Source: Halonotius aquaticus (GTDB lineage Archaea; Halobacteriota; Halobacteria; Halobacteriales; Haloferacaceae). From it: a stretch of 64,000 bases of DNA. Positions within the stretch are counted from its first letter, which is position 1; every line of letters starts with the position of its first letter. This document shows, in pieces, positions 7,994-26,490 of the stretch. The notes below the pieces were generated by a model. The model was not told where the DNA came from, did not search any database, and saw nothing but the letters and a program-made list of their open reading frames with translations. Made by a program: the position numbers and the translations under genes. The DNA is taken from NCBI RefSeq assembly GCF_003605575.1, contig NZ_QKNY01000018.1, positions 124,001-188,000 of the forward strand, given 5' to 3'.

Positions 7994-8953
7994 TCATGAC
8001 TGGTCTCCAACCCCAACACCACCAGCGAGTCGATCGATGCTGACGACGACAGCGGCACCAACGACGGCGACAGCAACGAAAAGCCCGATCAATTCGAGCG
8101 TCCAGCCGCGTCCGGCCTCAGTAAGTTCGATCCCGGTTTGGACGACCGGGGCACGCAGCGCACCAACGATGAGACTCACCAGAAACACCAGCGTCGCCTT
8201 CCGGTAGTGCGCAAGTGCCCACTGCACCGCGTGGGCGACCGTAAACAATCCGACGATGCCACCGAGCAGAAAGACGACAATCGATGGTGTCGTCTCACGA
8301 AGGGCAACCGTGCCGTTGCCACGAACGGCGGCGACGAGCCCATCAGTGAAGGTGCTGAGCGTCGTCGACATGTAGTCATACTGACCGAGCATGAGCAACA
8401 GCAGCGAGCCCGATACACCGGGCAACACCATCGCGGTGACAGCGATCGCACCAGCGACGAAAACAATCGGCAGCGACGTGCCGACCGCGGTCGCAGCGTA
8501 TCCCGAGAGACTGAACGCGAGGAAGACACCAGCGGCAGCAACGATCTTCCGGCCCCGCGTCGCCAGCGAAACCTCACTGTAGAGGACGGCCGCCGAAGCC
8601 CCAATCAGGCCGAAAAAGAAGCCGTAGGTGCCGACAGGCGCAACGTCGAGCAGGACGCTCACCACGCGGAGGATCGTCACCACGGCGGTGAGAATTCCTG
8701 CACCAACTGCAAGGAGAAACCCCACATCAAGCTCTCGAAGCGCGTCGGCGGCATCAGCCCGGTTTGCCGGGTCGATCCCGGCAACAATCCGACGAAGGCG
8801 GCTCGGCTCAACGGCGGTGATCGCGGCGATCAGGCGTTCGTAGATGCCGGTGATTAGGGCGATCGTCCCACCGGAGACGCCTGGGACAGCGTCGGCCGCG
8901 CCCATACAGAGCCCACGTAGGTAGATGCCAACAAACGCACGAAGCGTAATCAT
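7994..8953 (-). CDS. DUF368 membrane protein, PopT-type polyprenyl-phosphate translocase candidate
   Basis: A 319-residue polytopic membrane protein. It carries the DUF368 hallmark twice: M-G-A-A-D-A-V-P-G-V-S-G-G-T at about residues 18-30 and a second L-P-G-V-S-G-S in the middle, as expected of an inverted repeat. Bacterial DUF368 proteins (PopT) were reported as translocases that return undecaprenyl phosphate to the inner leaflet. The gene starts 27 bases after the stop of aglB on the same strand, so it is likely co-transcribed. I infer that it recycles dolichyl phosphate released by AglB. The family assignment is firm; the substrate is inference. Confidence 0.85.
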   Translation of the reverse strand: MITLRAFVGIYLRGLCMGAADAVPGVSGGTIALITGIYERLIAAITAVEPSRLRRIVAGIDPANRADAADALRELDVGFLLAVGAGILTAVVTILRVVSVLLDVAPVGTYGFFFGLIGASAAVLYSEVSLATRGRKIVAAAGVFLAFSLSGYAATAVGTSLPIVFVAGAIAVTAMVLPGVSGSLLLLMLGQYDYMSTTLSTFTDGLVAAVRGNGTVALRETTPSIVVFLLGGIVGLFTVAHAVQWALAHYRKATLVFLVSLIVGALRAPVVQTGIELTEAGRGWTLELIGLFVAVAVVGAAVVVSIDRLAGGVGVGDQS

Positions 8954-8980
8954 CGCCGGGCGTCAGACCTCATCTGCGGA

Positions 8981-11974
8981 TTACCCACTCGCTTGGATCG
9001 ATTGGCCGCCGAGTTGGAGCGGCTGTTCCTCGCTCAACTCGACATCAACGGCCGCGTCGTCGACACCGACCACCTGTGCCTCATCGACAGTCGCGGTGCC
9101 GGTGTAAAGCGCGCCGTCACTTGTTGCTTGGAGGCGGTACTCACTGTTTGCGCGCACGCTGATGTTCGTGTAGCCGTTTTCGGGGCCAAACTCGTCGTAG
9201 CCCGTCGTCGAGTACGGCACCGTGAGCTCGAAGGTACCGTCTGCGTCAGCAGTGGCGTACTGGGTGTAGACAAACTGTCTGTCACTGACGGGGATCTGCA
9301 TCTGAACGGAGGCCTGTACCTCGCTGCCGGCTGGCGCGCCAGAGCCCTCGATCGTTGCACCAGGCACCTTCTCGAAGGTTTTCACCCACGAGGGGTTATT
9401 CCGGAGCAGCGAGCCGGCAGAAGCGTTTGTTTGCTGTTGGAGTCGGCGGTAGCTGCGAAGATAATTGCGGCTCGTGGTGTCGCTGGCTTTGATAAGGCGA
9501 TAGTGCTCAAGGGCGTCAACGCGTTCGGTCGGGTTATCGCCGATGCCACCGAGTTGTGCGCCAGGGTTCTCTTCGACGTAGTCTCTGGCTGCTTCAAGCG
9601 TTTGGAACCGCTGAACGCCGTTTTCGAAGGTTCGAACCGTCGTTTGGCCACCGCCTCGTGTTGGCACGGTCTGTCGTTGAGTATCGAGGACAACCGGGGC
9701 TGGATTGACTGCACTGCCATGATAGGCGTACAACCGGATCATCTGACTCTCGTAGTACCGCTGTGTGCGAAGTCGAACCGGTTGGAGTTGTTGGCCCTGC
9801 GACTTGTACACAACGTCAATGAACTCATTGAAGCTTACATTATCGTTGAACACTGTCGGCGCAGAGAACTTCGAGTTCGGGTTGGCCATCTGGGAGTCGA
9901 TCATGACGTACCGCGTTTGGCCGTCTTCGCCCATCTTCTCGTCGAGGGCGTCTTGTGCGGCCGTCGCATTTGGTGCGAGTAGATAGTTCGCGGCCTCAGT
10001 CGCACCTTGCTGGAACGGGTTGGCGTTTGGGATGCGTTCGCCGTGGACAGTTATCCAGTGACCGTAGTCCCACCACGATTGGACGCCGTACGCCCCGTCT
10101 GGATAGTCGTAGTCACCATTGGCGGGTCGTTCGTAGGTTCCTGTTGGATCCATGGGTTCGGCGTCAGGATCTTCGAGTGTTCCAGGGGCTGGAGTCTCCT
10201 CGTTCATCCACTCTAAGCTGCCATCCCAGATTTCCACGGCACCGGGGCCATTGCTGTTCGGCCCAGCGGTGTCCCATGCCGCAACCGTCGGGAACACAAA
10301 TGGCGCGAGGACAAGGAAGACGATCGTGACACCGGCCATGACTTGCCACCCTTCGAGTGATTCGACGGATTCCCGTACTGAACCAACGGTCGAACGAATG
10401 TCAAGCAAGTCAGAGACTTGGGCGATGAAGATTGCGTTGAACACAGCGACGACGACGGCGAGGTAGTAGTTGAACCGAACCTGGGTGAACGCCGCGGAGA
10501 TAATGAACGCACCCCAGACGAGGAGATAGAGCTCGGTCGCCTCATAGCGATGGCGGAGGGTGGCACCGACGATCAGGCCGGTGCTGATGAGCAAGCCAAG
10601 CACCTGCCAGCTCGTTCCGAAGATCCCAGCGATCTGGTCGACGACAGGTGAGCCGAGATATATCAGGCCGACCGTTGTGAGGGCGGCGGCGACGTAGCCT
10701 GTGTCGCGTGTATCGTTGCTTTGGATCAGTGGGCGAGCGAGGATAACGAGAGCCGCAGCGATTGCAGTGAATAGTGCAAGTCGATACTCGCTGTAAATGA
10801 ATTCGAAGGGAGGGTTATCTGCGAGTGGTGGAGTCGCTTCACCGATCGTCCTCGAACCCGCACCGGCACTAAACCCGATACGGGCGATGAGTGCACCAGT
10901 CAAATCAACAACGAAGGTAGAGAAAGCTGTCGCAGACACAATGATCAATATACCGACAGAAATTGGATACCAGGTTCGATCTAACTCTCGTGTTTCCCAC
11001 TGTCGAGCAAGATACGCAAGGAATAGAGATCCGAGCCCAACACCGAGCGGAAGAATCACTTGGAGGAGTGAATGTTGAGTCGCACTACCGATTGTGAAGC
11101 TCTTTAGCGGCACTAACATCAATAATCCGGTGACCATCATCGAAACTGTACCAACAAACGCCATCGGTTCTGGACTCCGGTCGTGGTATACATCGGTTGT
11201 GATTTTGAGTGCAAAGAAGATGCCAGTGAATCCGACGAGAAGCACACCGGGCGGCCACGCCCACATGTAGAGTGCTGCCGCAACGCCGGCACCGACGGAG
11301 TAAACCAGTGGCCGACGGAGCGCGTCAAGATCACGGTCGACGACGAGTTCCCAAACTGGCTGTGATTGTTGGGCGACGGCGATCGCGGTTACGAAGCCAA
11401 ATACCCCGAGTGTCTGGAAAAAGACCTCAGCCGCGCTATGATCGTAGTAACCGACCAAGCTGTATCGAAGCACCGTCCCAGGAAGAAGGGCGAAGACCGC
11501 AGTTCCGACAAGTGCCGGCCATCGGCCGGTGAATCTGGCTGCGATAAGGTACGCGGGGACGACAGTCGCAGTAAGGAACACCGGCGCGGCAACAAGCATG
11601 ATCAACCCGGCATACTCGGTTGAGGGGTCTCCAAAGCTGGTAAGCAGAATAAAGCCGGAAACGAGCTGGTCGTAGAGCGTCCCGAACTGATCGACGCTCG
11701 TGCCAGTTGGATAGTTCGTCATCGGATCGAACGGCATCGTCGTCGGGAAGTGCTCAAGCAGATAATTGGTCTGCCGGAAGTGATACCACGGGTCGTTGCC
11801 GCGGAACGTCACGCCGCCATCGGTTTGGAAATTCTCCAATGCGCGGAGTCGGACGGCCAACATGAACGCGATGAGAGCCACCAACACTGGAATGTGATAC
11901 ACTTGTTTCAACACATCAGCGGGAGAGTCAGCCTGTTTTACTCCCCGGATGTAGTCGAGCACGGCATCTTTCAT
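8981..11974 (-). CDS. aglB: Dolichyl-phosphooligosaccharide-protein glycotransferase (oligosaccharyltransferase)
   Basis: A 997-residue STT3-family enzyme that moves the lipid-linked glycan to Asn in N-x-S/T sequons outside the cell membrane. The N-terminal half has about 13 hydrophobic segments; an early luminal-type loop holds the G-N-D-P-W-Y-H-F-R motif. The catalytic-domain signature W-W-D-Y-G is at residues 634-638. The C-terminal third is a soluble, beta-rich domain with carboxypeptidase-regulatory-like repeats ending near the stop. ATG 11974 lies about 27 bases after a TATA-like TTATTG (minus strand). It heads an operon with the DUF368 gene and marks the left end of the glycan island. 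Confidence 0.96.
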   Translation of the reverse strand: MKDAVLDYIRGVKQADSPADVLKQVYHIPVLVALIAFMLAVRLRALENFQTDGGVTFRGNDPWYHFRQTNYLLEHFPTTMPFDPMTNYPTGTSVDQFGTLYDQLVSGFILLTSFGDPSTEYAGLIMLVAAPVFLTATVVPAYLIAARFTGRWPALVGTAVFALLPGTVLRYSLVGYYDHSAAEVFFQTLGVFGFVTAIAVAQQSQPVWELVVDRDLDALRRPLVYSVGAGVAAALYMWAWPPGVLLVGFTGIFFALKITTDVYHDRSPEPMAFVGTVSMMVTGLLMLVPLKSFTIGSATQHSLLQVILPLGVGLGSLFLAYLARQWETRELDRTWYPISVGILIIVSATAFSTFVVDLTGALIARIGFSAGAGSRTIGEATPPLADNPPFEFIYSEYRLALFTAIAAALVILARPLIQSNDTRDTGYVAAALTTVGLIYLGSPVVDQIAGIFGTSWQVLGLLISTGLIVGATLRHRYEATELYLLVWGAFIISAAFTQVRFNYYLAVVVAVFNAIFIAQVSDLLDIRSTVGSVRESVESLEGWQVMAGVTIVFLVLAPFVFPTVAAWDTAGPNSNGPGAVEIWDGSLEWMNEETPAPGTLEDPDAEPMDPTGTYERPANGDYDYPDGAYGVQSWWDYGHWITVHGERIPNANPFQQGATEAANYLLAPNATAAQDALDEKMGEDGQTRYVMIDSQMANPNSKFSAPTVFNDNVSFNEFIDVVYKSQGQQLQPVRLRTQRYYESQMIRLYAYHGSAVNPAPVVLDTQRQTVPTRGGGQTTVRTFENGVQRFQTLEAARDYVEENPGAQLGGIGDNPTERVDALEHYRLIKASDTTSRNYLRSYRRLQQQTNASAGSLLRNNPSWVKTFEKVPGATIEGSGAPAGSEVQASVQMQIPVSDRQFVYTQYATADADGTFELTVPYSTTGYDEFGPENGYTNISVRANSEYRLQATSDGALYTGTATVDEAQVVGVDDAAVDVELSEEQPLQLGGQSIQASG

Positions 11975-12062
11975 TAGTTTGCCACAGTCTCAATCAGTCA
12001 ATAAGGCTTGTGAAAGAGATGCCCAAAAACACCTGAAAACTGTTCATCAGGTATGTTTGTAG

Positions 12063-12188
12063 TGCTCTGTTGAATAGTAGTTCTTATCGAGGGTAGTAGA
12101 AATTGAGCCGGGTATGGACAACTGAGATCTGTGATCTCAGAATTAATGTTGTCCAACTTCTGCTCAGTGGCCGCTATTCAACAGAGCA
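12063..12188. mobile_element. 126-bp MITE with 15-bp terminal inverted repeats and 8-bp target duplication
   Basis: The ends are a perfect 15-bp inverted repeat, TGCTCTGTTGAATAG (12063-12077) and its complement (12174-12188). The element is flanked by an exact direct repeat GTTTGTAG (12055-12062 and 12189-12196), the target-site duplication. Inside are nested dyads GGACAAC/GTTGTCC (12116-12122, 12148-12154) and CTGAGAT/ATCTCAG, and no coding capacity. An 8-bp duplication is typical of the ISH1 group of the IS5 family. It sits between the promoters of aglB and the AlkP gene at 12269 and fills most of this 294-base gap. Confidence 0.88.
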
Positions 12189-12268
12189 GTTTGTAGTAGA
12201 CCGAATATCGGTCTGGCAATACTGGGTAGCTCGAAACTCTTATTATTTCAACTCGAACATCAAGAGGT

Positions 12269-13843
12269 ATGAAGATGCTTGTCATCGGTCTTGATGGTCT
12301 TTCGTACAATATGTTAGAAAGATTTGATGTTTCATTTCCGTACTTAGAACATGTGAAAGATACGGGAATCTCTGGAGATTTGATGAGTGTCGACACACCG
12401 ACAACAATTCCTGCGTGGACATCATTTGCGACTGGAAAAGATCCGGGAAGCCATGGTGTCCACAATATGAATCATGTATCAGATGAATATGAATATGGTC
12501 CAGTGAAACCAAATACAACGGATGCAGCAATATACGATTTTCTTGATAATTCACTCTTTCTTAATCTCCCCGCTTCCGCGGGCCGTGTTCCAGCTAGTGA
12601 TGGTACACTCGTTGAGTCGTCAATGTTGGAGAAGACAAAATCAGAGATGGTTCCGGAACCGCTCCATGATCTTGATGCATACGAGAAATACAATCCAATG
12701 CATGACCACTCAAAAAAACAGCGACAGGATGTTTATCGTGATCACCTTCGTGATATCATTGCATCGCGAGAACAGTTCGCCAAAGAAGCATTTGAAAAAC
12801 ACGACCCTAAATTTGGTTTTGTATTATTCTCATCTACTGACTGGGCAGGACATATGCTCTCAAAAATCACTTCAAAAGAAAAACAAGAAAGGTTTTATCG
12901 GACTATTGTCGAAGATATTGCAGACTCAGTCGAACAGCTCGCGAATATGGGTGAGAATGTCATACTGATGAGCGATCACGGATTCGAACATAAACACCAT
13001 ACAATACATCTCTCTGATTGGCTGTACGAACAGGATTATCTCTCGTTAGCATCCAATAATAACAATCAAAATCAAAGTGTTAGCGGCCGCATCGCTAATC
13101 AAGCAGTAGAACTTGGTGTCTCGACCGCACAGGCATTATCAAGTCAATCGGAACGGTTATACGACTTTTTTCGATTGATCCACAATCGGCTTCTTGGGAG
13201 TGGATTGGGTGATCGAATTCACCAAGCTTCCACACCAGATATAGACTATCCCGAGTCGACAGCATGGCAGCTCCGGTATGGCTGTTTATATCTCAATGAT
13301 GATCGCTTTGAGAGCCCACAAGTGAGTTCCGATCAGCGTGATCAGCTCCAAGAGCAACTTGTCTCTGAGCTTCAAGCATTGGCTGTCGACGGCGAGCCGA
13401 TTTTCCGTGACGTACTCACACCTGAAGAGGCATACGCTGACCCGAGTCCCGATATGCCAGACGTAATCTCGCGGCCCGCACCTGGGCATCACGCGATCAC
13501 TCACTGGTCGCCAACCGGCGGCTACACGAGCCCGACCGAGAACTTCGAACACCGTTACCGGGGGCTGATCGCCGCCAAGGGGCCACTGTTCGGCAGCGGC
13601 GAGATCGAGGGGATGTCGATCGTCGACCTGCTGCCGACGCTATTCGCTGCGATGGGCGAACCGCTCTCCCCGGAGTTCGACGGCACGGTGCAGTCCGGGC
13701 TGTTGGCCGAGGAGCCAACCGTCAGCTATCTCGATCCAGAGGCGATCCCAGCGCCACAGGTGCGCGGCGAGAGCCGGGCGGAGGAAGCCGAACGCGAGGC
13801 GGTCGTCGAGGAGCGGCTCGCTGATCTCGGTTACATGGAGTAG
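12269..13843 (+). CDS. Alkaline-phosphatase-superfamily phosphodiesterase (type I PDE/NPP-like), compositionally chimeric
   Basis: A 524-residue hydrolase. Metal and nucleophile motifs are seen: G-L-D-G-L at residues 7-11, T-T-I-P-A-W-T-S-F-A-T-G with the likely Thr nucleophile near 46, S-T-D-W-A-G-H-M and M-S-D-H-G-F. This subfamily hydrolyses phosphodiesters or nucleotide-sugar-type pyrophosphates. The start has a TATA-like CTTATTATTT about 28 bases upstream. The first roughly 370 codons are AT-rich and the last 150 codons are strongly GC-rich like the next genes, so the gene looks like a recombinant. It ends L-A-D-L-G-Y-M-E, a tail shared by the other AlkP proteins here. Confidence 0.85.
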   Translation: MKMLVIGLDGLSYNMLERFDVSFPYLEHVKDTGISGDLMSVDTPTTIPAWTSFATGKDPGSHGVHNMNHVSDEYEYGPVKPNTTDAAIYDFLDNSLFLNLPASAGRVPASDGTLVESSMLEKTKSEMVPEPLHDLDAYEKYNPMHDHSKKQRQDVYRDHLRDIIASREQFAKEAFEKHDPKFGFVLFSSTDWAGHMLSKITSKEKQERFYRTIVEDIADSVEQLANMGENVILMSDHGFEHKHHTIHLSDWLYEQDYLSLASNNNNQNQSVSGRIANQAVELGVSTAQALSSQSERLYDFFRLIHNRLLGSGLGDRIHQASTPDIDYPESTAWQLRYGCLYLNDDRFESPQVSSDQRDQLQEQLVSELQALAVDGEPIFRDVLTPEEAYADPSPDMPDVISRPAPGHHAITHWSPTGGYTSPTENFEHRYRGLIAAKGPLFGSGEIEGMSIVDLLPTLFAAMGEPLSPEFDGTVQSGLLAEEPTVSYLDPEAIPAPQVRGESRAEEAEREAVVEERLADLGYME

Positions 13844-13849
13844 GAGAGC

Positions 13850-13866
13850 GGGAAGTCCGTCTTCCC
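13850..13866 (+). terminator. Stem-loop after the AlkP gene
   Basis: GGGAAG (13850-13855) pairs with CTTCCC (13861-13866) around a 5-nt loop, seven bases after the stop codon. There is no good T-tract, so it may only mark a transcript end or protect it. A TATA-like CTTATACG before the next gene follows. Confidence 0.35.
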
Positions 13867-13928
13867 ACGATAAACTTGCCTCGCAGAGCTTATACGTAGG
13901 CGTTATCAGAACTACTAGCAACAAGCGC

Positions 13929-14627
13929 ATGGTCAGCGAGTCACAGTTCGAAGCGGAACGGAGTCGGAACCAGCGGCCACACGACGCAGTTGACCCCGAG
14001 TCAGTCTTCGAGTCGGTTTCGGTCGTGATCCCGACCGTACGGGAGCGGAACTTCACAGTCGAGAGTCTGCCGGATTGGATCGATCCGATAATCGCCACCG
14101 AAGAGGGGCTTAACGTCGCTCGGAACCGCGGCATCGAGCGGGCCGACGGCGAGTGGATCGTCCTCGTCGACGACGACGTGACATTCCCGACCCGGCTCAC
14201 CGCGTGGCTGATCGATGGGATGCATCCGCTCCATCTGGCTGGACTCGAAGACTACTGGCCGATGGACGGCGTCCTCGGTCGGTTTATCATCTTCCACAAG
14301 TCGCTCTGGAAGCGTATCGGCGGCTTCGATGAATCCCGACCGCACGGTGGCGACACCGACTTCGTCGTCCGGTGTCGAAACGCCGGCGCGTCGGTCATCC
14401 GGCTTCCCCGGCGGCTGATTCCCCACCACGACGCAGCCGGGGAGTTTTCCACCGCCGAACACGTCGAGTGGCTCTCGTATCTCGTCCGTCGACACCCCCG
14501 ACAGATGGTGCCGAAGGCGGCGAAACTCCTGTTGCGGAAGCTCGGTCTCCTCTCGCCGAATCGCGGCGAGTATCCCGACGGCTGGGAGAGTGCCGTCTGG
14601 CGACCGCCCGCTGGAGGTGACGAATGA
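13929..14627 (+). CDS. Glycosyltransferase family 2 (GT-A fold)
   Basis: A 232-residue soluble glycosyltransferase. The N-terminus has the family strand S-V-V-I-P-T-V, an N-V-A-R-N-R-G segment, and the metal-binding V-D-D-D-V at residues 80-84. G-G-F-D-E and G-D-T-D-F-V-V-R at about 138-155 match the GT2 acceptor loop. No membrane segment is evident. It is GC-rich and overlaps the following AlkP-type gene by four bases (ATGA), so the two are translationally coupled. It is likely to add a sugar to the lipid-linked or surface glycan; donor and acceptor cannot be told. Confidence 0.85.
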   Translation: MVSESQFEAERSRNQRPHDAVDPESVFESVSVVIPTVRERNFTVESLPDWIDPIIATEEGLNVARNRGIERADGEWIVLVDDDVTFPTRLTAWLIDGMHPLHLAGLEDYWPMDGVLGRFIIFHKSLWKRIGGFDESRPHGGDTDFVVRCRNAGASVIRLPRRLIPHHDAAGEFSTAEHVEWLSYLVRRHPRQMVPKAAKLLLRKLGLLSPNRGEYPDGWESAVWRPPAGGDE

Positions 14628-16075
14628 CGAACGTTCTGTTAATCATCATGGACAGTGTCCGTGCGCGGAACACCTCGCTATACGGTCACGAACACGAGAC
14701 AACACCGTATTTGTCCGAACTTGCCGACGAGTCGACCGTCTACGAACAGGCCCGCAGCCCCGGAACGTGGAGCCTTCCTAGCCACACCAGCATCTTCACT
14801 GGCTACCACGTCGTCGAACACCGTATCACGCGGGCGCGTCACAAGCTTGAAGGCGGTCATACGATCTTCGAGGAACTCCACGGTGATGGGTATACCACGG
14901 GCGTGTTCTCAGAGAACACGTGGATCACCGATATGGACTGCGGGCTGCGCGACGTCTTCGACACCGTCGAAGGCGCCCGGAACCTGCTGTTCCCCGACGC
15001 TATCGACCCCTCGAACTTCGTGCTCTCGGAGGGACAGGGACAGTACACCCAGTTCCTCCGGGAGTGTCTCGGTCGCGACGATACGCTCCAGTCGCTCGCA
15101 AATGGCGCGTTCACCAAACTTGCGTGGGACTACCCGCGACTGCTCCCGGATCGGTTTACCTCGTCGACGCCTGCCGAGGTGTACGGCGAGCTGTTCCTCG
15201 ATTGGGAGGCCGAACAGTCGGAACCGTGGGCTGCGACGATCAACTTCATGGACGCCCACCTCCCGTACCTCCCGGCCGACGAACACGACCGGTGGGGCGG
15301 CAAACAGCTCCGGGGGCTCCAAGACGAGATGGACGATCAGGTCTGGGAGTTCAACGGCGGCCAGCGACCGTGGTGGCAACGGAAGGCACTGGAGGGGTTG
15401 TACGACGGGACGATCCACCAGATGGACAGCCAGATCGAACGCGTCGTCGAAACCCTCCGCGACCGGGGCGTCCTCGACGACACCCTCCTCATCGTGACCA
15501 GCGACCACGGCGAAGGGTTCGGCGAGCCGAGCCGAATCCGTGGCGACCGGGACAGTCCACGACCGAACGCCCGCGTCGCGGCCCACGGCGCTGGCATCCA
15601 CGAGGTACTGTGTCACGTCCCGCTTGTCGTCCGTCCGCCCGGCGGCAGCGAGGGCGACCGCGTCGACGAGCCGGCGAGCCTCACACAGTTCCCAACCGTG
15701 GTCGAAGAGACGCTCGCCGGCGAGGAGGCATCGTTCGTTCCCGACGAGCCGGTCGTCGTCTCGTCACACGGCCTCGAAGAGCCGATGGAAGAACGGGCCT
15801 CCCGGTATGCCGGGGATCTCTACCGGTTCAACGGGGACTGTCGGGCCGTCTACGAACCCCATGAGGAGACGGTTCGAAAGTACCTCTCGTGGCGCGAGAA
15901 ACGAGGGCGTGTCGACCTCGTGGGCGCGTCGGCATCGTGGCTCGCCTCGGGGACCGACGATGGTGTTGTCGACGAGCGGTTCGGTTCGATTTCGGATCGC
16001 GGGGTGCAAACCGACTCTGGTGCCGAGGTCGACGAGGCGACACAGAAGCGACTTGAAGACTTGGGGTATATGTGA
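14624..16075 (+). CDS. Sulfatase-fold (AlkP superfamily) hydrolase or transferase
   Basis: A 483-residue protein. The metal-site Asp10 is in L-I-I-M-D-S-V-R, the nucleophile region reads W-S-L-P-S-H with Ser50, and a second metal motif is T-S-D-H-G-E-G-F-G. True sulfatases carry C/S-x-P-S-R, which directs formylglycine formation; here His54 replaces Arg, so sulfatase chemistry is uncertain and phospho- or sulfo-group transfer is possible. It is coupled to the GT2 gene before it. It ends L-E-D-L-G-Y-M. No signal peptide is seen, which suggests a cytoplasmic site. Confidence 0.83.
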   Translation: MTNVLLIIMDSVRARNTSLYGHEHETTPYLSELADESTVYEQARSPGTWSLPSHTSIFTGYHVVEHRITRARHKLEGGHTIFEELHGDGYTTGVFSENTWITDMDCGLRDVFDTVEGARNLLFPDAIDPSNFVLSEGQGQYTQFLRECLGRDDTLQSLANGAFTKLAWDYPRLLPDRFTSSTPAEVYGELFLDWEAEQSEPWAATINFMDAHLPYLPADEHDRWGGKQLRGLQDEMDDQVWEFNGGQRPWWQRKALEGLYDGTIHQMDSQIERVVETLRDRGVLDDTLLIVTSDHGEGFGEPSRIRGDRDSPRPNARVAAHGAGIHEVLCHVPLVVRPPGGSEGDRVDEPASLTQFPTVVEETLAGEEASFVPDEPVVVSSHGLEEPMEERASRYAGDLYRFNGDCRAVYEPHEETVRKYLSWREKRGRVDLVGASASWLASGTDDGVVDERFGSISDRGVQTDSGAEVDEATQKRLEDLGYM

Positions 16076-16150
16076 GACAATATTTTTACATATATTGTTG
16101 TCAAGTCCCAACACAGTTTCGAGAATGTTTTTGAGTGCTTCTTTACCCTA

Positions 16151-16348
16151 CTCTGTTGAATATCGATCTGTTCGGCTGAATTCAGGGGTTAGAAGAGTGA
16201 AGACAAGGAATCGACTCTGTCCATGGAAATCGATCTACTCGACTTCGTTGAGCAGTGTCGACGGCTAGTCAAACAAGATTGGGAAAGCATGCGGGCTCGT
16301 CCGCTGGAAGCACGTCATTACAGTACCTCAAACTCTGTTTCTTGGTGA
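16151..16348 (+). pseudogene. Decayed IS5-type transposase, N-terminal remnant with left end
   Basis: At 16223 an ATG opens M-E-I-D-L-L-D-F-V-E-Q-C-R-R-L-V-K-Q, which I recognise as the N-terminus of a common haloarchaeal IS5-family transposase. The homologous reading then jumps frame (L-G-K-H-A-G in the next frame) by an apparent one-base deletion near 16277, and the in-frame reading stops at 16348. Seventy bases before the ATG, CTCTGTTGAATA (16151-16162) matches the end of the MITE at 12063. The rest of the element and its right end are not found. Confidence 0.7.
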
Positions 16349-16768
16349 AATTAAAGAGCGAGATAAACCCTGTAAAATCAGTCGTGGATAAACCCTCCTC
16401 GCTCACAGAACGGCTCTGGCGATGGACATGTGTCAATAAGTGTGCCTATCGGAGTCGCAAGCTCGATCAAGGTATTAGCGTGGCCGCAACGAGAATCTGG
16501 CCTTAGGCCGCTACCTTCCCCCGGTACATACAGTAGTACGCGGGAGCTTGATGTACTGGCAGAGGTCGAGATCGTAGTCCTCGGCCGTTGATTCCGGGGT
16601 TTCACCGATCACACTGCAGATGTGGTGTATATCCATGTTGACGCAGATTTTGAACACCCAGACGGCATGTGGAACACAAACTCTGATACCGTAGGATGAA
16701 TTTGCCACGAAGTGAGTGCGACAAAACAATGCACTGTTCTATTTTACAACGAACGTATATGCACCACG
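16349..16768. other. Non-coding, decayed stretch between IS remnant and VTT gene
   Basis: About 420 bases of intermediate GC. Short open readings on both strands show no recognisable domain and no start signals. It is probably further mobile-element debris next to the transposase remnant. I see no promoter motif I can defend before the ATG at 16769. Confidence 0.4.
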
Positions 16769-17464
16769 ATGACCAATCTACCCCGTAATCAGCTCTTGCG
16801 TACGCTTTTCCTGTTTCTGGGCCTCTGCCTGTTCGCTCTCGTTGGATTCCTCTATACGCCGACAGAGTTCTTTCCTCTGACACAGTTAGGTGATCGGTAT
16901 TGGCTCTTTCTTACCGTCGGGCTGGCGGTATTCTATCTCGTACGGCCGTTCCTCCTATGGCCACTCAGTATATTTTCTGTTTTCATCGGCTATGCCTTTG
17001 GGTTCCCAGACGGGATTCCGTTAGTGTTGCTTGGAACGCTCCTCACGTGCTTTCCCCCGTATCTCATCGCTGCTCGGTTCGACGGCAAATTCGGGTATTT
17101 CAACCGATTTGTAGAACACGGGACAACATTCGTCGAGACAACGGGCGAACTTCGTGGAATGGTCGCGGTACGACTCTCACCCGCACCCGCAGACGCCGTC
17201 TCGTATGGTGCCGGACTCGCAGGAGTCTCGGTACAGGCGTTCGCTGCTGGGACACTCATCGGTGAACTACCGTGGGCGATATTCTATGTGCTCCTTGGGC
17301 GTTCGCTTCGGACGTTTTCAGCTGGTGCGATTCAACAAACGGATATTCGACTCATTCTACTTACTGCAGCAGTGTCAGTTCTCCTCATCGCCCGTCCGCT
17401 GTACGAATTCGTCCGTGGACACGGAGGCCAAGACGATGAAACATCTGGCGATCATTCACGATGA
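16769..17464 (+). CDS. VTT-domain (TVP38/DedA-like) membrane protein
   Basis: A 231-residue protein with an N-terminal membrane segment, a hydrophobic pair around residues 45-90, the conserved G-x-P-L-G-T-L-like loop, and the VTT signature V-R-L-S-P-A-P-A-D-A-V-S-Y-G-A-G-L-A-G-V near residues 135-155, then two more hydrophobic segments. VTT-superfamily proteins include DedA/UptA polyprenyl-phosphate translocases in bacteria and lipid scramblases in eukaryotes, so lipid-carrier transport is plausible here. ATG 16769 is chosen because the earlier in-frame start gives a polar tail unlike the family. The 3' end overlaps the convergent gene by nine bases. Confidence 0.82.
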   Translation: MTNLPRNQLLRTLFLFLGLCLFALVGFLYTPTEFFPLTQLGDRYWLFLTVGLAVFYLVRPFLLWPLSIFSVFIGYAFGFPDGIPLVLLGTLLTCFPPYLIAARFDGKFGYFNRFVEHGTTFVETTGELRGMVAVRLSPAPADAVSYGAGLAGVSVQAFAAGTLIGELPWAIFYVLLGRSLRTFSAGAIQQTDIRLILLTAAVSVLLIARPLYEFVRGHGGQDDETSGDHSR

Positions 17465-18433
17465 ATCGATATCTTCGCGATCCCGAACATACCGATAGCT
17501 GACGAATACTACAGTACCGAGCACAGCCCCATACCAGAGGGTGCCCACTCGGATTACCAGCGTTGAACTGACAGCAATCGCCCGCGAGTAATTGAGGACG
17601 ACGAGCATTCCGACCATACTGGCCTCAGAAGCACCCAAACCACCGGGTAACAGACTCGCAGCACCAACCACGGAGCCAAGCCCGAACACGAATAGTGCCA
17701 CCAGCACCGACGCGTCCGCGACGAACCCTTCCAACACGATCCAGAGTGCGAGCCCTTCGAGACCCCACGCGACGAGACTGATCACGAGTGCCACCCCCAA
17801 CGGTTTCGGTTGGAAGAGACTGTATGTGCTCTCGTAGAACTCTCGGATTTCATCGGCATAAGAACCCACAACTGGTACTGTTTCCAAGAGTACCAAAATT
17901 CGAAGACAGATGGTTCGCCATTGGAGGAGCGCAACCCCGACGAGAAAGACCACAGTGACGCCGATCAACGTCGTGGACGATTGTCGGTACACCACGACTC
18001 CGAGGAACGCAAACGCTGCTAACGCCAAGAGGTCGGTCACGCGTTCTGCACCGACAACCGGTGCCGTCTGATTCACAGGGACATCCTGCTCGTCACGGAG
18101 AAACCACGCCTTCCAGACTTCGCCTGCTTTCCCCGGCGTGATCACCATCATCAATCCACTCACGAATACCAAGAGACTGGTTCGAACTGGGACATCGATC
18201 CCGAGTTCACGAAGGTAATATTCCCACTTCAGAAAGCGGATGCCGTAACTCACGGTCACGAGAGCAAATACGGCACCGATCCGCCACAGCTCAAGTGAGT
18301 CAAGCGCGTCAACGACTGCGGGGGCATCTCCAAACAAAAAGAGCCCGAAAAAGACAGCGACTGTCAACAGTGCTGTTACCCAGAGCCCATGCTTCCGCAC
18401 AGCGTTCTGAATCCGATATAGATAGCCACTCAT
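17456..18433 (-). CDS. LPG-synthase-type (UPF0104/flippase-like) membrane protein
   Basis: A 325-residue polytopic membrane protein with about eight hydrophobic segments and family landmarks: F-L-K-W-E-Y-Y-L-R-E-L-G-I near residue 70, T-P-G-K-A-G-E near 105, A-E-R-V-T-D near 130, and S-L-L-P-G-G-L-G-A-S-E-A near 265. This fold is shared by MprF-type lysyl-phosphatidylglycerol flippases and the C-terminal domain of the haloarchaeal glycosylation protein AglD. Start 18433 gives an ATGA overlap with the PHP gene; the ATG at 18445 is less likely. It probably moves or processes a lipid-linked intermediate. Confidence 0.82.
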   Translation of the reverse strand: MSGYLYRIQNAVRKHGLWVTALLTVAVFFGLFLFGDAPAVVDALDSLELWRIGAVFALVTVSYGIRFLKWEYYLRELGIDVPVRTSLLVFVSGLMMVITPGKAGEVWKAWFLRDEQDVPVNQTAPVVGAERVTDLLALAAFAFLGVVVYRQSSTTLIGVTVVFLVGVALLQWRTICLRILVLLETVPVVGSYADEIREFYESTYSLFQPKPLGVALVISLVAWGLEGLALWIVLEGFVADASVLVALFVFGLGSVVGAASLLPGGLGASEASMVGMLVVLNYSRAIAVSSTLVIRVGTLWYGAVLGTVVFVSYRYVRDREDIDSS

Positions 18434-19068
18434 ATGTTCAAGCAAGTTAGCGCATCGTTGAGTTTGGTTGCAATATGGCCGGAAAGATAGCCTCCTCGAC
18501 CACCAGTCTCTGTTAAGTCTTCCCGAATCGCATCAAGGACCGGCCCATCACATTTCGTGTAAGCCCGTCCTACTTCCATCGGAAAGTGGGCATCACTTCC
18601 GCCCGTGAGAGAGAGGTCATGTTGCTCTGCGAACGAGCGTGCATTCCGATTGTAATGGGGAACGATACAGCGTGAGTTTAGTACTTCGACGCCGTCGATG
18701 TGGGCCGCAATCTCGTCTAACTCGTCGGTGTAGTATTCCCGGAATTTGTCAAACGGGTGCGACAGGATAGCAAGCCCCTCCTGCTCGTGAATCGCGTGAA
18801 TGACCGTTAACGGATCGGCCTGTGGCGGTACCTCGGTCACATCGAGAGCGAGCAAATGTCCCTGTGTCGTCGTTACCTCAACGCCGGGAATCACGGTCAG
18901 ACTCTCCGGTGCGAGTGCGTTTACCGCATCGTACCCTTCAAGCGTGTCGTGATTCGTGATCGCAAGCCCGTCCAGCTCAGCGTCAACCGCCGCCTCAACG
19001 ATATCCTCGGGGCTGGCTCGCGAACAGGGGGACGCGTCAGTATGTACCTGCAAATCATACCGATTCAT
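18430..19068 (-). CDS. PHP-domain metallophosphoesterase
   Basis: A 212-residue protein of the PHP fold. Metal ligands are clear: H9 and D11 in L-Q-V-H-T-D, H40 and D41 in I-T-N-H-D-T, a Glu in P-G-V-E-V-T, H in I-L-S-H-P-F, and G-G-S-D-A-H near the end. PHP proteins hydrolyse phosphoesters; the substrate here is unknown. It is translationally coupled on both sides: ATGA with the UbiA-like remnant before it and ATGA with the membrane protein after it, so all three were once one operon acting on a lipid-linked sugar phosphate. Confidence 0.85.
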   Translation of the reverse strand: MNRYDLQVHTDASPCSRASPEDIVEAAVDAELDGLAITNHDTLEGYDAVNALAPESLTVIPGVEVTTTQGHLLALDVTEVPPQADPLTVIHAIHEQEGLAILSHPFDKFREYYTDELDEIAAHIDGVEVLNSRCIVPHYNRNARSFAEQHDLSLTGGSDAHFPMEVGRAYTKCDGPVLDAIREDLTETGGRGGYLSGHIATKLNDALTCLNI

Positions 19069-19471: not shown

Positions 19472-20005
19472 ATGGAGGAGTCAGAGCCAGTCATCATTGA
19501 CTTGGGCGCCGGTACAGATCCCGATCCACGAGCTACAATAACGGCAGATATTGCCCAACTTCCCGGTCTAAATATCCAATTCGATCTTGATTCTCAGCCG
19601 TGGCCGATCAAGAACGGAACCATTGATGGCATCATTGCGAGACATGTGTTCGAGCATCTTGTCGATGTCGAAGGCGCGCTAGAAGAAGCTTCAAGAATAT
19701 TGAAACCAGGGGGATGGTTGGAATTTGATGTTCCTCTTGGACGTCCGAACAAGACGGATCCGACGCATAAGAACACATGGACATGGACGACGCCGGAATT
19801 TTTCGCAAGCGGTGGGACACGTAACTATTACTATGATCTTCCTTTCGCACTTGAAGACCGCTCTATGACGGTCTGGTTCGAAGGCCCATTATCGAAACTA
19901 TCACCACTGTATCGAACGTTCGTTGATGTATACGGGCCTGGAGATTGGGTATCCGGTACCCCATATATGGCCGGTACTCTGACTGTCCGATTTCGGAGAG
20001 ACTAG
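19472..20005 (+). CDS. Class I SAM-dependent methyltransferase
   Basis: A 177-residue protein with motif I I-I-D-L-G-A-G-T at about residues 8-14, an acidic residue at the end of strand 2, D-G-I-I-A-R-H-V-F-E-H-L (post-motif I, typical of Methyltransf_11), and L-K-P-G-G-W-L-E-F-D near residue 88. Within a glycan island it most likely methylates a sugar, but this is inferred from position. The gene is clearly less GC-rich than neighbours, as is the GT4 gene two bases after its stop, so the pair probably arrived together. Confidence 0.82.
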   Translation: MEESEPVIIDLGAGTDPDPRATITADIAQLPGLNIQFDLDSQPWPIKNGTIDGIIARHVFEHLVDVEGALEEASRILKPGGWLEFDVPLGRPNKTDPTHKNTWTWTTPEFFASGGTRNYYYDLPFALEDRSMTVWFEGPLSKLSPLYRTFVDVYGPGDWVSGTPYMAGTLTVRFRRD

Positions 20006-20007
20006 TC

Positions 20008-21045
20008 ATGAGAATCTGTCTGATCGGGACGCTTCCAGAAGCAGATCGCGAGGCACACAAAGGGCCTGAGCGAACCACGATTGGATTAGCTGAGTCACTC
20101 TCTAACCGGGGTCACGAAATTGTGGTTGTCTCGGATGAAGGCGAGAGTGCAACCGTTGATGTTCCGGCGCGGATTATCGGTGAAAATCTATCTCCGGGTG
20201 TAGACCGTCTCGTTCGGTTCTATCTCAGAGTTCGTCGAGAGATCGATTATAATTCGTTTGATATTATCCATGCATGGCGGCCAGTTCCTGATGCGGATGT
20301 CTTCTCGATTCACTCCGTGGATGCCGCAAACTCTGTAGAGGAACACCGTCCAGGTAGCTTTTCTTTACGTTTCAGGGCCGGAGCGAAGCTTGAGCTATTA
20401 GGAAAAAGATTTGCAGCTTCCCGAGCTGCACGTACCGTTGTGACTGCCGTCCAGAACGTTATTGACGCGACGAATCATGGTATCGAACCAAATCGTGTAA
20501 TTCCGGTCGGTGTGAATAAATCATTCATCCAGCAGAACGAGGTGATTGACAACGAGATAGAGATTCTCTGCGTAGGTCGTATTGAACCGAGGAAGAATCA
20601 AGCGTTTCCGGCTGCACATACCCCAAAGAGATACTCCCTTCGACTCGTTGGCCCGTGTTCAACTGATTATATATCGGAGGTAGAACAATTTGAAACCCGT
20701 TGGGAAGGAAAACTTTCCTCCGAAGAACTGATGAGTGCCTATCGGGAGGCGGACGTATTTGTACTTCCGAGTATTTTTGAAGGTTTCGGCCTGACTGCGG
20801 TCGAAGCGATGGCTGCCGGCACTCCTATTGTGGTTGCTGATACGTGTGGCGTGGCAGAACACGTATACGACGAACCCATTGGTGGTGTATATAAATTCGG
20901 TGATATCGAATCCTATCAGCGTCAACTCGAACGCATCGTCAACAACCGAGTAGAGTATGGACAGAACGCACAGAGATACGTCAAGGAGAATCTAACTTGG
21001 GACACCATCGCCGCTCAGTACGAACGAGAATATGAGAGGGTTTAG
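20008..21045 (+). CDS. Glycosyltransferase family 4 (GT-B fold)
   Basis: A 345-residue retaining-type glycosyltransferase. The N-terminal domain opens R-I-C-L-I-G-T-L-P; the C-terminal domain has C-V-G-R-I-E-P-R-K-N near residue 190 and the GT4 nucleotide-sugar site S-I-F-E-G-F-G-L-T-A-V-E-A-M-A-A-G-T-P near residue 255. ATG 20008 lies two bases after the methyltransferase stop, with no room for a separate promoter, so the two are co-transcribed. AT-rich relative to the surrounding genome, suggesting import. The sugar donor is unknown. Confidence 0.88.
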   Translation: MRICLIGTLPEADREAHKGPERTTIGLAESLSNRGHEIVVVSDEGESATVDVPARIIGENLSPGVDRLVRFYLRVRREIDYNSFDIIHAWRPVPDADVFSIHSVDAANSVEEHRPGSFSLRFRAGAKLELLGKRFAASRAARTVVTAVQNVIDATNHGIEPNRVIPVGVNKSFIQQNEVIDNEIEILCVGRIEPRKNQAFPAAHTPKRYSLRLVGPCSTDYISEVEQFETRWEGKLSSEELMSAYREADVFVLPSIFEGFGLTAVEAMAAGTPIVVADTCGVAEHVYDEPIGGVYKFGDIESYQRQLERIVNNRVEYGQNAQRYVKENLTWDTIAAQYEREYERV

Positions 21046-21086: not shown

Positions 21087-22007
21087 ATGACGAATCCGAT
21101 CTACTCTATTGCTGTCTGCAACTTCAATATGGCAGACACACTTGAGCCCTCACTCCGGAGTATGGTGAACCAAATTCCTGAAGACGACTATGAAGTGGTA
21201 GTTGTCGATGGAGGCTCTACGGACGGTAGCCGTGACATCCTCCGCTCACTGGAGGCCGAATACCCTAATCTTCGCGCCATTCTCGACCGCGCCGACGAAT
21301 GCAATCATCTTGGCGGTGACCGGAATATTTCCTTCGAAGAAGCTCGCGGTGAATATGTGCTTGAATCAATGGACACCGACGATTGCTATTTTGAGGGTAT
21401 CGTCAGGGACTTCGTCTCTATTTATCATCAGATCGAATCGGTCGTCGACTACCCGTACTTCCTATCCGGGACTGGCATCAACATGGCACCTCGCAAACTC
21501 CTGCTTGACGTGCCGTACTACGATCTTGGAGGGGCCGAAGATCGTGATCTGTACAGACGCCTATTCGTCCGTGACACACCCTTATGGATCGATCATGGTC
21601 CCATCTCCGAGGAGATCGGATATCACATGAACTGGCGGGACGAACTCCGGCGTGATATACATGGAAAGATCTGTGATTTCCAGTCAGGCATCACACTCGC
21701 GTCCGCGCTCCGCTGGTCGCTCTCCCACGAGCGACACTGGATTCTCGAACGCAACCGTGGTTTTATTTTAAATACACTCAAGAAACCGTATGATCTTTTC
21801 ACACACTGCTACGCCTATTGGAAGGCCAACGGTCGGGAACACCATGACGCACCACCCAGTTTTGAACGAAAAGGAACGCTAGAACAGAAGATTGCTGAGG
21901 TGAAAAAAACGCTCCCCGACCTCGAATCGGCATACGGGTTCGAAGTCGACCGCGAATCGTTCAGCGAGGCAGGATACGAGGCGTTCGTGGAATACGCAGA
22001 ACCGTAG
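21087..22007 (+). CDS. Glycosyltransferase family 2
   Basis: A 306-residue protein. The start Y-S-I-A-V-C-N-F-N is the GT2 first strand, V-V-V-D-G-G-S-T-D-G-S near residue 38 binds the nucleotide, and M-D-T-D-D near residue 94 is the metal-binding DxD region. The last third lacks membrane segments and is rich in charged residues. It lies 41 bases after the GT4 gene in the same direction and converges with the frameshifted AlkP gene, 15 bases away. GC rises toward its end. Expected to extend the same glycan. Confidence 0.84.
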   Translation: MTNPIYSIAVCNFNMADTLEPSLRSMVNQIPEDDYEVVVVDGGSTDGSRDILRSLEAEYPNLRAILDRADECNHLGGDRNISFEEARGEYVLESMDTDDCYFEGIVRDFVSIYHQIESVVDYPYFLSGTGINMAPRKLLLDVPYYDLGGAEDRDLYRRLFVRDTPLWIDHGPISEEIGYHMNWRDELRRDIHGKICDFQSGITLASALRWSLSHERHWILERNRGFILNTLKKPYDLFTHCYAYWKANGREHHDAPPSFERKGTLEQKIAEVKKTLPDLESAYGFEVDRESFSEAGYEAFVEYAEP

Positions 22008-22022
22008 CCGTGCCACCAACGA

Positions 22023-23362
22023 TCAGTCGAGATGGCCGAGTTCTTCCAACCGCTGTCGTGCCTCGTCGGTGACATCGTCGGGGACACCGCCGTCGCCGTC
22101 TTCAAGGAGTCGGTTGGGAATCTTCGACCGATACGCACGGCGTTTTTCCGGGTTATCGGCGGAGAGATCGGTTCGTTCGGCGGGATCGGCTGCGAGATCG
22201 TACAGCTCCGCGTCGTCCCCGATATTGATATATTTCCAGCCGTCAGCCCGAACGGCGACAACTGGAACATCAGCAGCGAACGAGCCACGCGTGATCGGTT
22301 CGCGGGGAGCTGACTCCCTGAGATCCGTTCCGAGGAACGCTTCCGGTGGGTCGACATCGTGTAAGCGACAAACTGTCGGTGCGATATCGACTAACTCACG
22401 GGTCTCGTCGACCTCCAGCGGAAGGTTCGATGTTCCCTCGGACGTTTTCATGAACATCGGCACCCGAATCAGCTCCTCATACGGATGGTTCCGGTGGAAG
22501 TAGAGGCCGTGCTCGCCGAACTCCTCGCCGTGGTCCGCCGTGAGAACCACCGACGTGTCCTCCCACAGTCCATCGTCGGCCAGCCCGTCGAACAACCGCG
22601 AGACGTGTTCGGAAGTGTACCGGATCGCCGAGTCGTAGAGGTCGACCAGCAGCGATCGCTGGTCGTCGTCGATCGTCTCCGGGTCGACGCCCGCATTCGC
22701 CATCAGATCGAGGATTTCGGATCGGTCGAGATCAGGGCCGTAGGCCGGAGAATCGGCGTTGATCGCGTACGGTCGGTGGGGGTCCATGTAGTGAACCCAT
22801 AGGCAGAACGGCTCCTCCGCCTCCCGGATGAATTCGAGTGCCCGATCAGTCGTGGTTTCGGCACTCTCGAAAACGGCGACCTCGTGGATGAGCGAGGCCG
22901 GGACGACAGCCTCCTGAACCGTACGGGCGAGATCGAACACACCGAGTCGTTGTAGGGCTGGACGAACCGTATCGAACAGCCCGCGGGCGAGTTTGTTGGT
23001 CGTCGGGACGGCTTCGTCGTGGCTTGCCTGACCGACAAAATCCTCGTAGACATCCATCCCGTGGACATCGTCGAACTTCGACGCGAAAAACGTGTTTGAG
23101 TGGATCGCCCCGGTTCGAACATCGTCTGGCAATGCCGATCCGATCGTCGGGCCGGAACGGACGGCACTGTTGCCATCGTATCGGGAGGTGAGCATGGACG
23201 GCACGAGATGCCAGTGTACGTGCCGTTGACGATCGTTTGGTCGAACTTGACACCACCGGCCTCAAGCAGCCGGTTGGCAACCGGGAGTGTGTCCCGCTCG
23301 TAGCCATACTGCGAGAGGTGGTCACGGCGAACCGCATCGAGCGTGACAATAAGCGTGTTCAC
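22023..23362 (-). pseudogene. Sulfatase-fold (AlkP superfamily) gene with a frameshift in the active-site motif
   Basis: Two readings join into one AlkP-family protein of about 446 residues. From a GTG at 23362, N-T-L-I-V-T-L-D-A-V-R-R-D runs to G-T-Y-T-G-I-S near 23204. The rest continues in another frame from P-S-M-L-T-S-R-Y-D-G to the stop at 22023, with T-A-D-H-G-E-E-F-G metal motif and the tail L-E-E-L-G-H-L-D. The total length is one base short of a whole number of codons, so a single base is missing around 23199-23204, exactly at x of the S-x-P-S nucleophile motif. Otherwise undecayed, so a recent mutation or an assembly error are both possible. Confidence 0.78.
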
Positions 23363-23460: not shown

Positions 23461-24870
23461 ATGCGTAATGTCGTGTTGGTCTGTCTCGACGCGATCCGGA
23501 AAGACTTCTTCGACGAGTACGCGGGACGACTGCGCGACCGGGCGGGCATCGAGTACGTACAGGCCAGAGCGGTCAGCGGCTGGAGCGTCCCGAGCCACGC
23601 CTCGATGCTCACCGGGACATTACCGCACGAACACGAGATTCACACGTTCGACCGTGACTTCTCAGGACTGAAACGAGAGGAGACGTTTCTCGGCGACCTC
23701 CCTGACCACGAGGCACTCGGTGCGAGTGCGAACGTATATGCGAGCGACGCGTTCGGATTCGACGGGTTGTTCGACGCCTACCGGAGCGTCTCGCCGGATC
23801 GACGGTTCCCGGAAGGGTTGGACGCCGAACGCTGGGGGCAAAAGGCCGACGAGACCGGCCTCGCACGATACCTCGCGTTTCTCCGGTCGGCACTCAGCCA
23901 CGAACACCCACTCTCGAGTATCGCCAACGGTGTGCTCGTCGAGATCGACGACAGGCTCGCGGATGCCCCCTTCGAGAAACCGTTGGACGACGGCGCAAAC
24001 ATCGTCGCCCGTGAAGCGAGACGACTCGTTTCAGCGGCCCCCGAACCGTTCGTCCTCTTTACCAATTTCATGGACGTTCACGGACCGTTGACACCCGTTC
24101 GGGCCTACGACAGCAGTCTGTACGACGCCTCGCCGTCGTGGTCCTCGCGGGCTTTCGACGGCCGAGCCGTCGAGCACGGCGAGATTGACGAGATCCGGGA
24201 CGATATCGAACACCACCGGGATCTGTATGCCGCCGCGACCGACTACCTCGACCAGGTCGTCAACGACCTCGTCGACTGGCTCCACTCGAAGACCGACGAA
24301 GAGACGACAGTGGTCGTCACCGCCGACCACGGCGAGAATCTCGGCTACGAGGCCGACCGCCGGCTGTTCGCCCACCGGAGCGGGCTCACGGAGGGACTGT
24401 TACACGTCCCACTGCTCGTGTTGAATCCACCCGAAGGAGTGGATCAGATCGTCGACGACTACGTCTCGCAGCTCCGTCTCGGCGAACTCCTGACGGGGCT
24501 GGCTACCGGAACCGTTCTGGACGTGACCGACGACGTGATCCCGGCCGAACGGATCGGGTTCAACATCCCGGTGAACCCGAACGCGACGCCGCTCCGTGAC
24601 GAGGATCGTGCGATACGGGTCGCCTACGAGGGCACCGCGAAATACCAGTGGGATTCCCTCGGCAACCGGTATCGGTACCGGCTGGATCGGGACCGACCCT
24701 CGTGGCAGCAGCTTGAGGCGGAGGACGTAGACGTCTCCGACTACGAGTCGACGCTGTTCGGGGTTCCGATAGAGGAGTACAGACAGCGGGTCGAAACGTC
24801 GTCGGCGGATCGAACTGCCAGCGTCGACGACGCCGTCGAACAGCGACTCACGGACCTCGGCTACCGCTGA
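23461..24870 (+). CDS. Sulfatase-fold (AlkP superfamily) hydrolase or transferase, tandem copy A
   Basis: A 469-residue protein. Asp10 in V-C-L-D-A-I-R-K-D, Ser42 in W-S-V-P-S-H, and V-T-A-D-H-G-E-N-L-G are the expected metal and nucleophile motifs; the Arg of the sulfatase signature is replaced by His46. It is closely related along its whole length to the next gene, a tandem duplicate. It ends L-T-D-L-G-Y-R. The ATG follows a TATA-like TTTAATATGG by about 25 bases, so it may be leaderless. It is divergent from the frameshifted AlkP gene. It has no signal peptide. Confidence 0.84.
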   Translation: MRNVVLVCLDAIRKDFFDEYAGRLRDRAGIEYVQARAVSGWSVPSHASMLTGTLPHEHEIHTFDRDFSGLKREETFLGDLPDHEALGASANVYASDAFGFDGLFDAYRSVSPDRRFPEGLDAERWGQKADETGLARYLAFLRSALSHEHPLSSIANGVLVEIDDRLADAPFEKPLDDGANIVAREARRLVSAAPEPFVLFTNFMDVHGPLTPVRAYDSSLYDASPSWSSRAFDGRAVEHGEIDEIRDDIEHHRDLYAAATDYLDQVVNDLVDWLHSKTDEETTVVVTADHGENLGYEADRRLFAHRSGLTEGLLHVPLLVLNPPEGVDQIVDDYVSQLRLGELLTGLATGTVLDVTDDVIPAERIGFNIPVNPNATPLRDEDRAIRVAYEGTAKYQWDSLGNRYRYRLDRDRPSWQQLEAEDVDVSDYESTLFGVPIEEYRQRVETSSADRTASVDDAVEQRLTDLGYR

Positions 24871-26321: not shown

Positions 26322-26490
26322 TTAATACACAAACCCCTCAAACGGTAGTTACCGGCGAACAGTCTCCATCTCACAGTCTATGGATAAACTGTAGCGTCGG
26401 CAGACACAGCCGCCGACAGAATATCAGCATCCACAGCGCACTACCAGCCGACGGATCTCGTTCCCATCATCAGTCTAAGGAGGGTATGTG

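Follow-up and report, generated by a model that had tools for sequence, protein, structure and literature searches.

The aglB-DUF368 locus and its glycosylation island

The window (the whole stretch of 64,000 nucleotides of Halonotius aquaticus DNA analysed here) holds an oligosaccharyltransferase gene, aglB, followed by a gene of the DUF368 family, within an island of glycosylation genes. The features referred to below are:

7994-8953, (-) strand: candidate polyprenyl-phosphate translocase of the DUF368/PopT type, 319 aa; PF04018 E 6.8e-64, 216.2 bits against a cut-off of 26
8405-8422, (-) strand: second motif, PGVSGS, DUF368 codons 178-183; all of 60 sequences share P178, G179, S181 and G182
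8864-8884, (-) strand: first motif, PGVSGGT, DUF368 codons 24-30; all of 60 sequences share P24, G25, S27, G28 and T30
8954-8980, (-) strand: spacer from the aglB stop to the DUF368 start, 27 nt, operon-like, read from the sequence
8981-11974, (-) strand: aglB, archaeal oligosaccharyltransferase, 997 aa; TIGR04154 829.7 bits against 450
12269-13843 and 14624-16075: phosphodiesterase/sulfatase-type genes
13929-14627, (+) strand: GT2-type glycosyltransferase; PF00535 27.2 bits against 23.3
16712-17464, (+) strand: VTT/DedA-superfamily membrane protein, start codon uncertain; PF09335 60.6 bits against 33.9
17456-18445, (-) strand: LPG_synthase_TM/flippase-like protein; PF03706 140.5 bits, TIGR00374 95 bits against 43.2
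19945-21045: GT1 gene
21087-22007: second GT2 gene
26488-27933, (+) strand: Wzx-type polysaccharide flippase; PF01943 48.8 bits against 28.2

The DUF368 gene lies directly downstream of aglB, as an earlier note on this DNA had claimed; it is on the same strand, 27 nt past the aglB stop, and the genome has no other gene of this family. The aglB product is an AglB by its profile score, and it contains the AglB domains PF22627 (70.7 bits) and PF18079 (61.8 bits). The same note had placed a VTT/TVP38-type gene about five kilobases away in the same island, and this also holds: the VTT gene is 4.7 kb from the aglB start, on the opposite strand, and 7.8 kb from DUF368. Its product belongs to the VTT domain family and scores 26.2 of the 250 bits required by the UptA equivalog NF052604. 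At its 3' end the gene overlaps the flippase-like gene tail to tail by 9 nt (the two together span 16712-18445), and the glycosyltransferase and sulfatase-type genes around it are joined by epimerase genes. Counting those at 22023-23204 (on the (-) strand), 23461-24870 and 24927-26321, there are five sulfatase/phosphodiesterase-type genes in the one island, which may serve in the modification of surface glycans. For the outward movement of the charged carrier, the Wzx-type flippase is a candidate in its own right. A promoter and terminator scan, which recognizes bacterial sigma-70 sites only, gave sites no more numerous than in shuffled sequence.

The match of the window DUF368 protein to PF04018 spans positions 1-228 of the 246 in the profile, placing it in the same Pfam family as the undecaprenyl-phosphate (und-P) translocases of Vibrio cholerae (VCA0040) and Staphylococcus aureus (SAOUHSC_00846). 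It reaches 80.3 of 400 bits on the PopT equivalog NF052563 and 175 of 400 bits on the Vibrio-type equivalog NF052564; judged by these profiles, it is a member of the same superfamily as both but of a different curated equivalog. PopT is reportedly the subject of a paper by Roney and Rudner. Unlike the bacterial genes, the window gene adjoins the gene of an N-glycosylation oligosaccharyltransferase, in a group whose carriers are described as dolichyl phosphates.

The two halves of the protein are repeats of one another (residues 1-150 against 151-319, hhalign probability 98.0, E 1.8e-13), and each carries a PGxSG segment, at residues 24-28 and 178-182, that is invariant across 60 sequences with a mean column identity of 42%; given the repeat, the second motif is the equivalent of the first. 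That two repeated halves, each with a conserved PGxSG, define the family is our own reading and not a curated rule. An AlphaFold2 model of the protein is all-helical (mean pLDDT 91.6), with short helices beginning at each PGxSG segment (28-34 and 182-188). These may be paired membrane-dipping hairpins, as would suit a carrier with symmetric halves. No sequence relative was found in the PDB at E <= 1, Foldseek returned no solved relative at E <= 0.001, and the best structural match to the model, VIA with Z 8.6, lies inside the background stated for such models.

The PGxS motif also occurs in BacA/UppP, a polyprenyl-pyrophosphate phosphatase that acts on the same lipid class outside the cell, and prompted a comparison of the two families; the profile similarity is not significant (hhalign probability 8.5), and kinship is not supported. 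The BacA/UppP reading frames in this comparison were chosen by what we take to be the motif of that family.

Pairing of DUF368 with aglB across the Halobacteria

We searched 212 genomes of the class, evenly drawn with one per species, with PF04018 and TIGR04154. DUF368 is present in 209 of them and aglB in 209, with both in 208. Tabulating the neighbours of DUF368, as the earlier note had proposed, shows that in 149 of these 208 genomes it follows aglB on the same strand, in 138 with no more than 600 bp between profile ends and in 11 within 5 kb; in none of the 208 does it lie upstream of aglB, or on the opposite strand, within 5 kb. Elsewhere DUF368 is found far off on the same contig (32 genomes) or on another contig (27), and in at least one genome, G161, the separation may reflect a contig break, since DUF368 begins at base 254 of its contig. 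Chance would put the gene within 5 kb downstream at a rate of about 0.07% per genome, compared with the 149 of 208 seen, and the pairing exceeds chance. Because related genomes are not independent counts, a tree and the spread over families form a safer basis. Each of the nine family groups with both genes includes linked genomes, so that a lack of linkage elsewhere, which the earlier note had named as telling against its reading, is not what we find. By genus (n=68), 45 are wholly linked, 4 are mixed and 19 have no linked genome, the last including one genus without DUF368.

When named species were scanned, DUF368 was found just downstream in 63 of 80 aglB loci; the taxa with the pair include Halococcus, Haladaptatus, Halorussus, Halorubrum, Haloquadratum and several Haloferax species, and in Halobacterium salinarum DSM 3754 the gap is 2 nt. 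Seventeen loci have no adjacent DUF368, two of which (L157, L167) end within about 1 kb of aglB and one (L148) within 2.1 kb; none of the four Halobellus loci, nor the Haloarcula locus, has DUF368 beside aglB.

For a closer view of spacing and neighbours, 95 loci of the class (the window and 94 others, chosen genus-wide and with extra copies included) were studied in full, of which 56 are linked. The two genes overlap or are at most 6 nt apart in 29 linked loci, with gaps of -4 and -1 common; 50 gaps are below 160 nt and six exceed 1.4 kb. Each gene was taken to begin at its earliest possible start codon, and single values may therefore be off. Five of the six large gaps contain aglM (NF041297, 713-754 bits against a cut-off of 670), and the order aglB, aglM on the other strand, then DUF368 is seen in Haloferax larsenii, H. 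elongans, H. massiliensis and Halogeometricum limi. Loci of several Haloferax, Halogeometricum and Haloquadratum have aglM in this intermediate place (L145, L150, L154, L208, L169), as do related genomes (L013, L019, L020, L030, L033).

DUF368 is the sole constant gene beside aglB in the 56 linked loci. The next commonest family, glycosyltransferases with an AglG-type (glucuronosyltransferase) representative, occurs in 36, on mixed strands and in mixed places, and every remaining real gene family in at most 26; these counts leave out open frames antisense to aglB and DUF368. Since the flanking families change between loci, gene order in general is not kept, whereas the pair is. In 14 loci where DUF368 is absent behind aglB, we saw no constant substitute gene. 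Around the 39 unlinked DUF368 copies there is no recurrent glycosylation gene; the most frequent neighbours are a MutS-type gene and a family without assignment, each in 10.

Genes for an FAD-binding protein, an Fe-S cluster (CCG) protein and an FGGY-type kinase recur downstream of DUF368 in about 23-26 of the 56 linked loci (for example L051:1447-2907, L097:10316-11653 and L082:467-2011); they look like a glycerol-3-phosphate dehydrogenase set with a glycerol kinase.

The pair can also be placed in the best-studied agl system. According to the available part of the DUF368 paper, the H. volcanii protein HVO_RS12060 partly complements a Vibrio delta-vca0040 mutant, which lacks a candidate und-P translocase (PMC9876793), and two other papers, in their available parts, give aglB as HVO_RS12050, aglG as RS12045 and aglI as RS12040. 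From the tags, the protein tested by rescue is an aglB neighbour, and since locus tags step by five, its gene is the second after aglB. The gene between should be aglM, both by published data (HVO_1531 is aglM of H. volcanii; PMC3871713, available text) and by the order in the sister species. The agl clusters had been drawn with aglM (HVO_1531) as the last gene in Haloferax or aglB (VNG1068G) in Halobacterium. The available text of the DUF368 paper (PMC9876793) makes no mention of aglB, nor do the agl-cluster papers, in the portions at hand, mention DUF368. A search of the open full-text literature, with subscription papers and preprints outside its scope, gave no paper that names both DUF368 and aglB, and searches of the open literature on DUF368/COG2035 in archaea or on und-P in Haloferax gave none joining DUF368 and agl.

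History and retention of the pair

A rooted tree was built from the 95 DUF368 copies of the class and 7 outgroup copies (out of 18; one long-branched row was dropped and ten were unused). All of its deepest branches are linked copies, so linkage is most simply ancestral, and six changes between the linked and unlinked states are needed. A second DUF368 clade, with SH-aLRT support of 96, collects 33 of the 39 sampled unlinked copies; it is nested in the branch of f1, the family of the window, spans families f1, f3, f4 and f8, and is never beside aglB. An earlier tree gave the same clade. We infer that it moved between families and replaced a lost aglB-linked copy, whereas the other six unlinked copies, placed among linked relatives, look like simple moves. 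A linked copy and a second DUF368 copy occur together in thirteen genomes. The loci in the unlinked clade are L021, L036, L038, L040, L042-L044, L046-L050, L056, L060-L062, L066, L068, L069, L071, L072, L074, L075, L078, L081, L084, L087, L088, L090, L094, L096, L099 and L105.

Loss of linkage is rarely loss of the gene: DUF368 is present in 208 of the 209 genomes with aglB, and 59 of the 60 that have no linked copy retain it elsewhere. The exception, G021, has aglB, no DUF368 and two VTT genes; conversely, G117 has DUF368 and no AglB above the cut-off, with a weak STT3-type match only. These two genomes are natural tests of the pairing. Two fragmented assemblies, G186 and G205, have neither gene.

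Outside the class the arrangement is different. In the other classes of the phylum DUF368 is present in 37 of 241 genomes, and it lies within 5 kb of aglB in none of the 37 and within 25 kb in five (by eye). Family f29 has it 12-15 kb from aglB in four of its five DUF368 genomes, and in G306 the distance is about 20 kb (by eye). In L113, the one sister-class locus annotated, the intervening genes are mostly unrelated (for example TiaS and a thermosome subunit, besides one glycosyltransferase), and we therefore do not count this proximity as support.

VTT genes (E <= 0.001) occur in 12 of 16 DUF368-negative and 7 of 15 DUF368-positive genomes outside the class, a difference too weak to call the two families alternatives there. 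Since four of the 16 DUF368-negative genomes have neither gene, other solutions to carrier return must exist.

A candidate return route for the glycan carrier

With each round of N-glycosylation a used lipid phosphate is left behind on the opposite face of the membrane, and which protein returns it is, to our knowledge, not settled in archaea or eukaryotes. In H. volcanii dolichyl phosphate carries the glycan, which AglB transfers outside the cell (PMC3871713, in its available text). We consider it probable that DUF368 is the inward translocase of AglB-released dolichyl phosphate in haloarchaea, a proposal that extends from the gene pair to transport as such, to dolichyl phosphate as the substrate, to the inward direction and to AglB as the main source. 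AglB would take the glycan off dolichyl phosphate outside, where the bare lipid phosphate would stay; DUF368, made from the gene right behind aglB, would then return it to the inner leaflet, and glycosyltransferases would reload it there.

The distribution of BacA/UppP bears on which form of the lipid is returned. It was found in 30 of 59 class genomes (G000-G058) and is absent from that of the window. DUF368 is near-universal by comparison, which fits the return of a monophosphate, where moving is needed and dephosphorylation is not. Movement of the carrier thus seems to be required and BacA-type dephosphorylation not, in a comparison that covers BacA/UppP as its one phosphatase family.

The earlier note had cast DUF368 as the missing return step in archaea. 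Within haloarchaea the linkage is conserved and most simply ancestral, and the gene is kept in 208 of 209 aglB genomes, and this part of the proposal gains from what has grown from one genome into a class-wide, old and nearly obligatory pairing, tied to a published rescue result. As a statement about archaea it is too broad: 204 of the 241 sister-class genomes have no DUF368, so we regard the pair as a haloarchaeal arrangement and not as the general archaeal answer. DUF368 is the best candidate for the return of the carrier to the inside of the cell in haloarchaea.

DUF368 might have a wider remit: when the cell is under high-salt or alkaline stress, it might recycle polyprenyl phosphate for every envelope pathway, with the aglB operon a matter of co-expression and AglB one source of several. 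Sit et al. suggested that the enrichment of DUF368 in Halobacteria reflects salt adaptation (PMC9876793, available text), the 59 of 208 genomes with DUF368 away from aglB work without linkage, and G117 retains the gene without a canonical AglB. Most of this mechanism is common to the return step that we favour, and an order and strand that stay constant across all nine groups with both genes, together with the frequent gene overlaps, point to AglB specifically. We regard the wider remit as unlikely in this form.

An outward role, in which DUF368 is the flippase for the lipid-linked oligosaccharide that feeds AglB, would lead one to expect the same linkage. The haloarchaeal papers, in the parts available, leave the crossing of the charged carrier open, with AglR and Agl15 as partial candidates. 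These H. volcanii membrane proteins belong to the same glycosylation pathways and are proposed to act on dolichyl-phosphate carriers, but for outward movement of the charged form; their genes lie at other places inside or outside the agl cluster, and they are not DUF368 proteins (PMC3871713, available text). Three points argue against such a role for DUF368: a mutant in a candidate translocase of bare und-P is rescued in part by the H. volcanii protein (PMC9876793, in the part available), one conserved family of 42% identity stands beside sets of glycosyltransferases that change from genome to genome, and the island in the window has a Wzx-type flippase of its own. An outward flippase is, in our estimate, quite improbable.

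The VTT/DedA protein of the island is another conceivable return transporter. DedA-type proteins are reported to have the return role in bacteria (PMC10127716, available text), and UptA/DedA members of the VTT superfamily, a Pfam family separate from DUF368, are proposed there for the same step (PMC10127716, PMC12826051; both in their available parts). VTT homologues occur in 199 of 212 class genomes (E <= 1e-12), and G021, which has no DUF368, carries two. However, among the 143 genomes whose VTT positions were listed, out of the 199 with a match, only 5, the window included, have a VTT gene within 30 kb of aglB; on this count VTT is not a conserved neighbour of aglB, and the part of the earlier note that set both superfamilies beside aglB is not supported for this one. 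To judge by these data, it is by chance that the window has its VTT gene near aglB. With the low score on the UptA equivalog in addition, we think it very doubtful that in this island VTT returns the dolichyl phosphate and DUF368 plays an accessory part.

That the pair is a mere relic of an old gene order, with no functional tie, would be in keeping with the several losses of linkage (six changes among 95 class sequences) without visible loss of either gene, but is hardly credible, as the neighbours on either side are not kept in the same genomes, so that slow rearrangement in general cannot explain the pair, and the gene ends are coupled.

We lean, by a little, towards a fuller reading, in which Halobacteria have a carrier cycle of two genes, one for the oligosaccharyltransferase and one for a translocase dedicated to the return of dolichyl phosphate. 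The two would have shared one operon, with coupled translation, from the base of the class onward, and in some lineages the second, separately located DUF368 clade would have replaced the linked copy and taken over its job. The comparative data single out one gene, HVO_RS12060 of the tractable Haloferax volcanii, and tie it to the oligosaccharyltransferase; they also join two lines of work that stood apart in the literature searched, on bacterial DUF368 translocases and on haloarchaeal agl clusters. If the two-gene cycle is true, DUF368 would be the first dolichyl-phosphate return transporter to be assigned in protein N-glycosylation, whatever the pathway.
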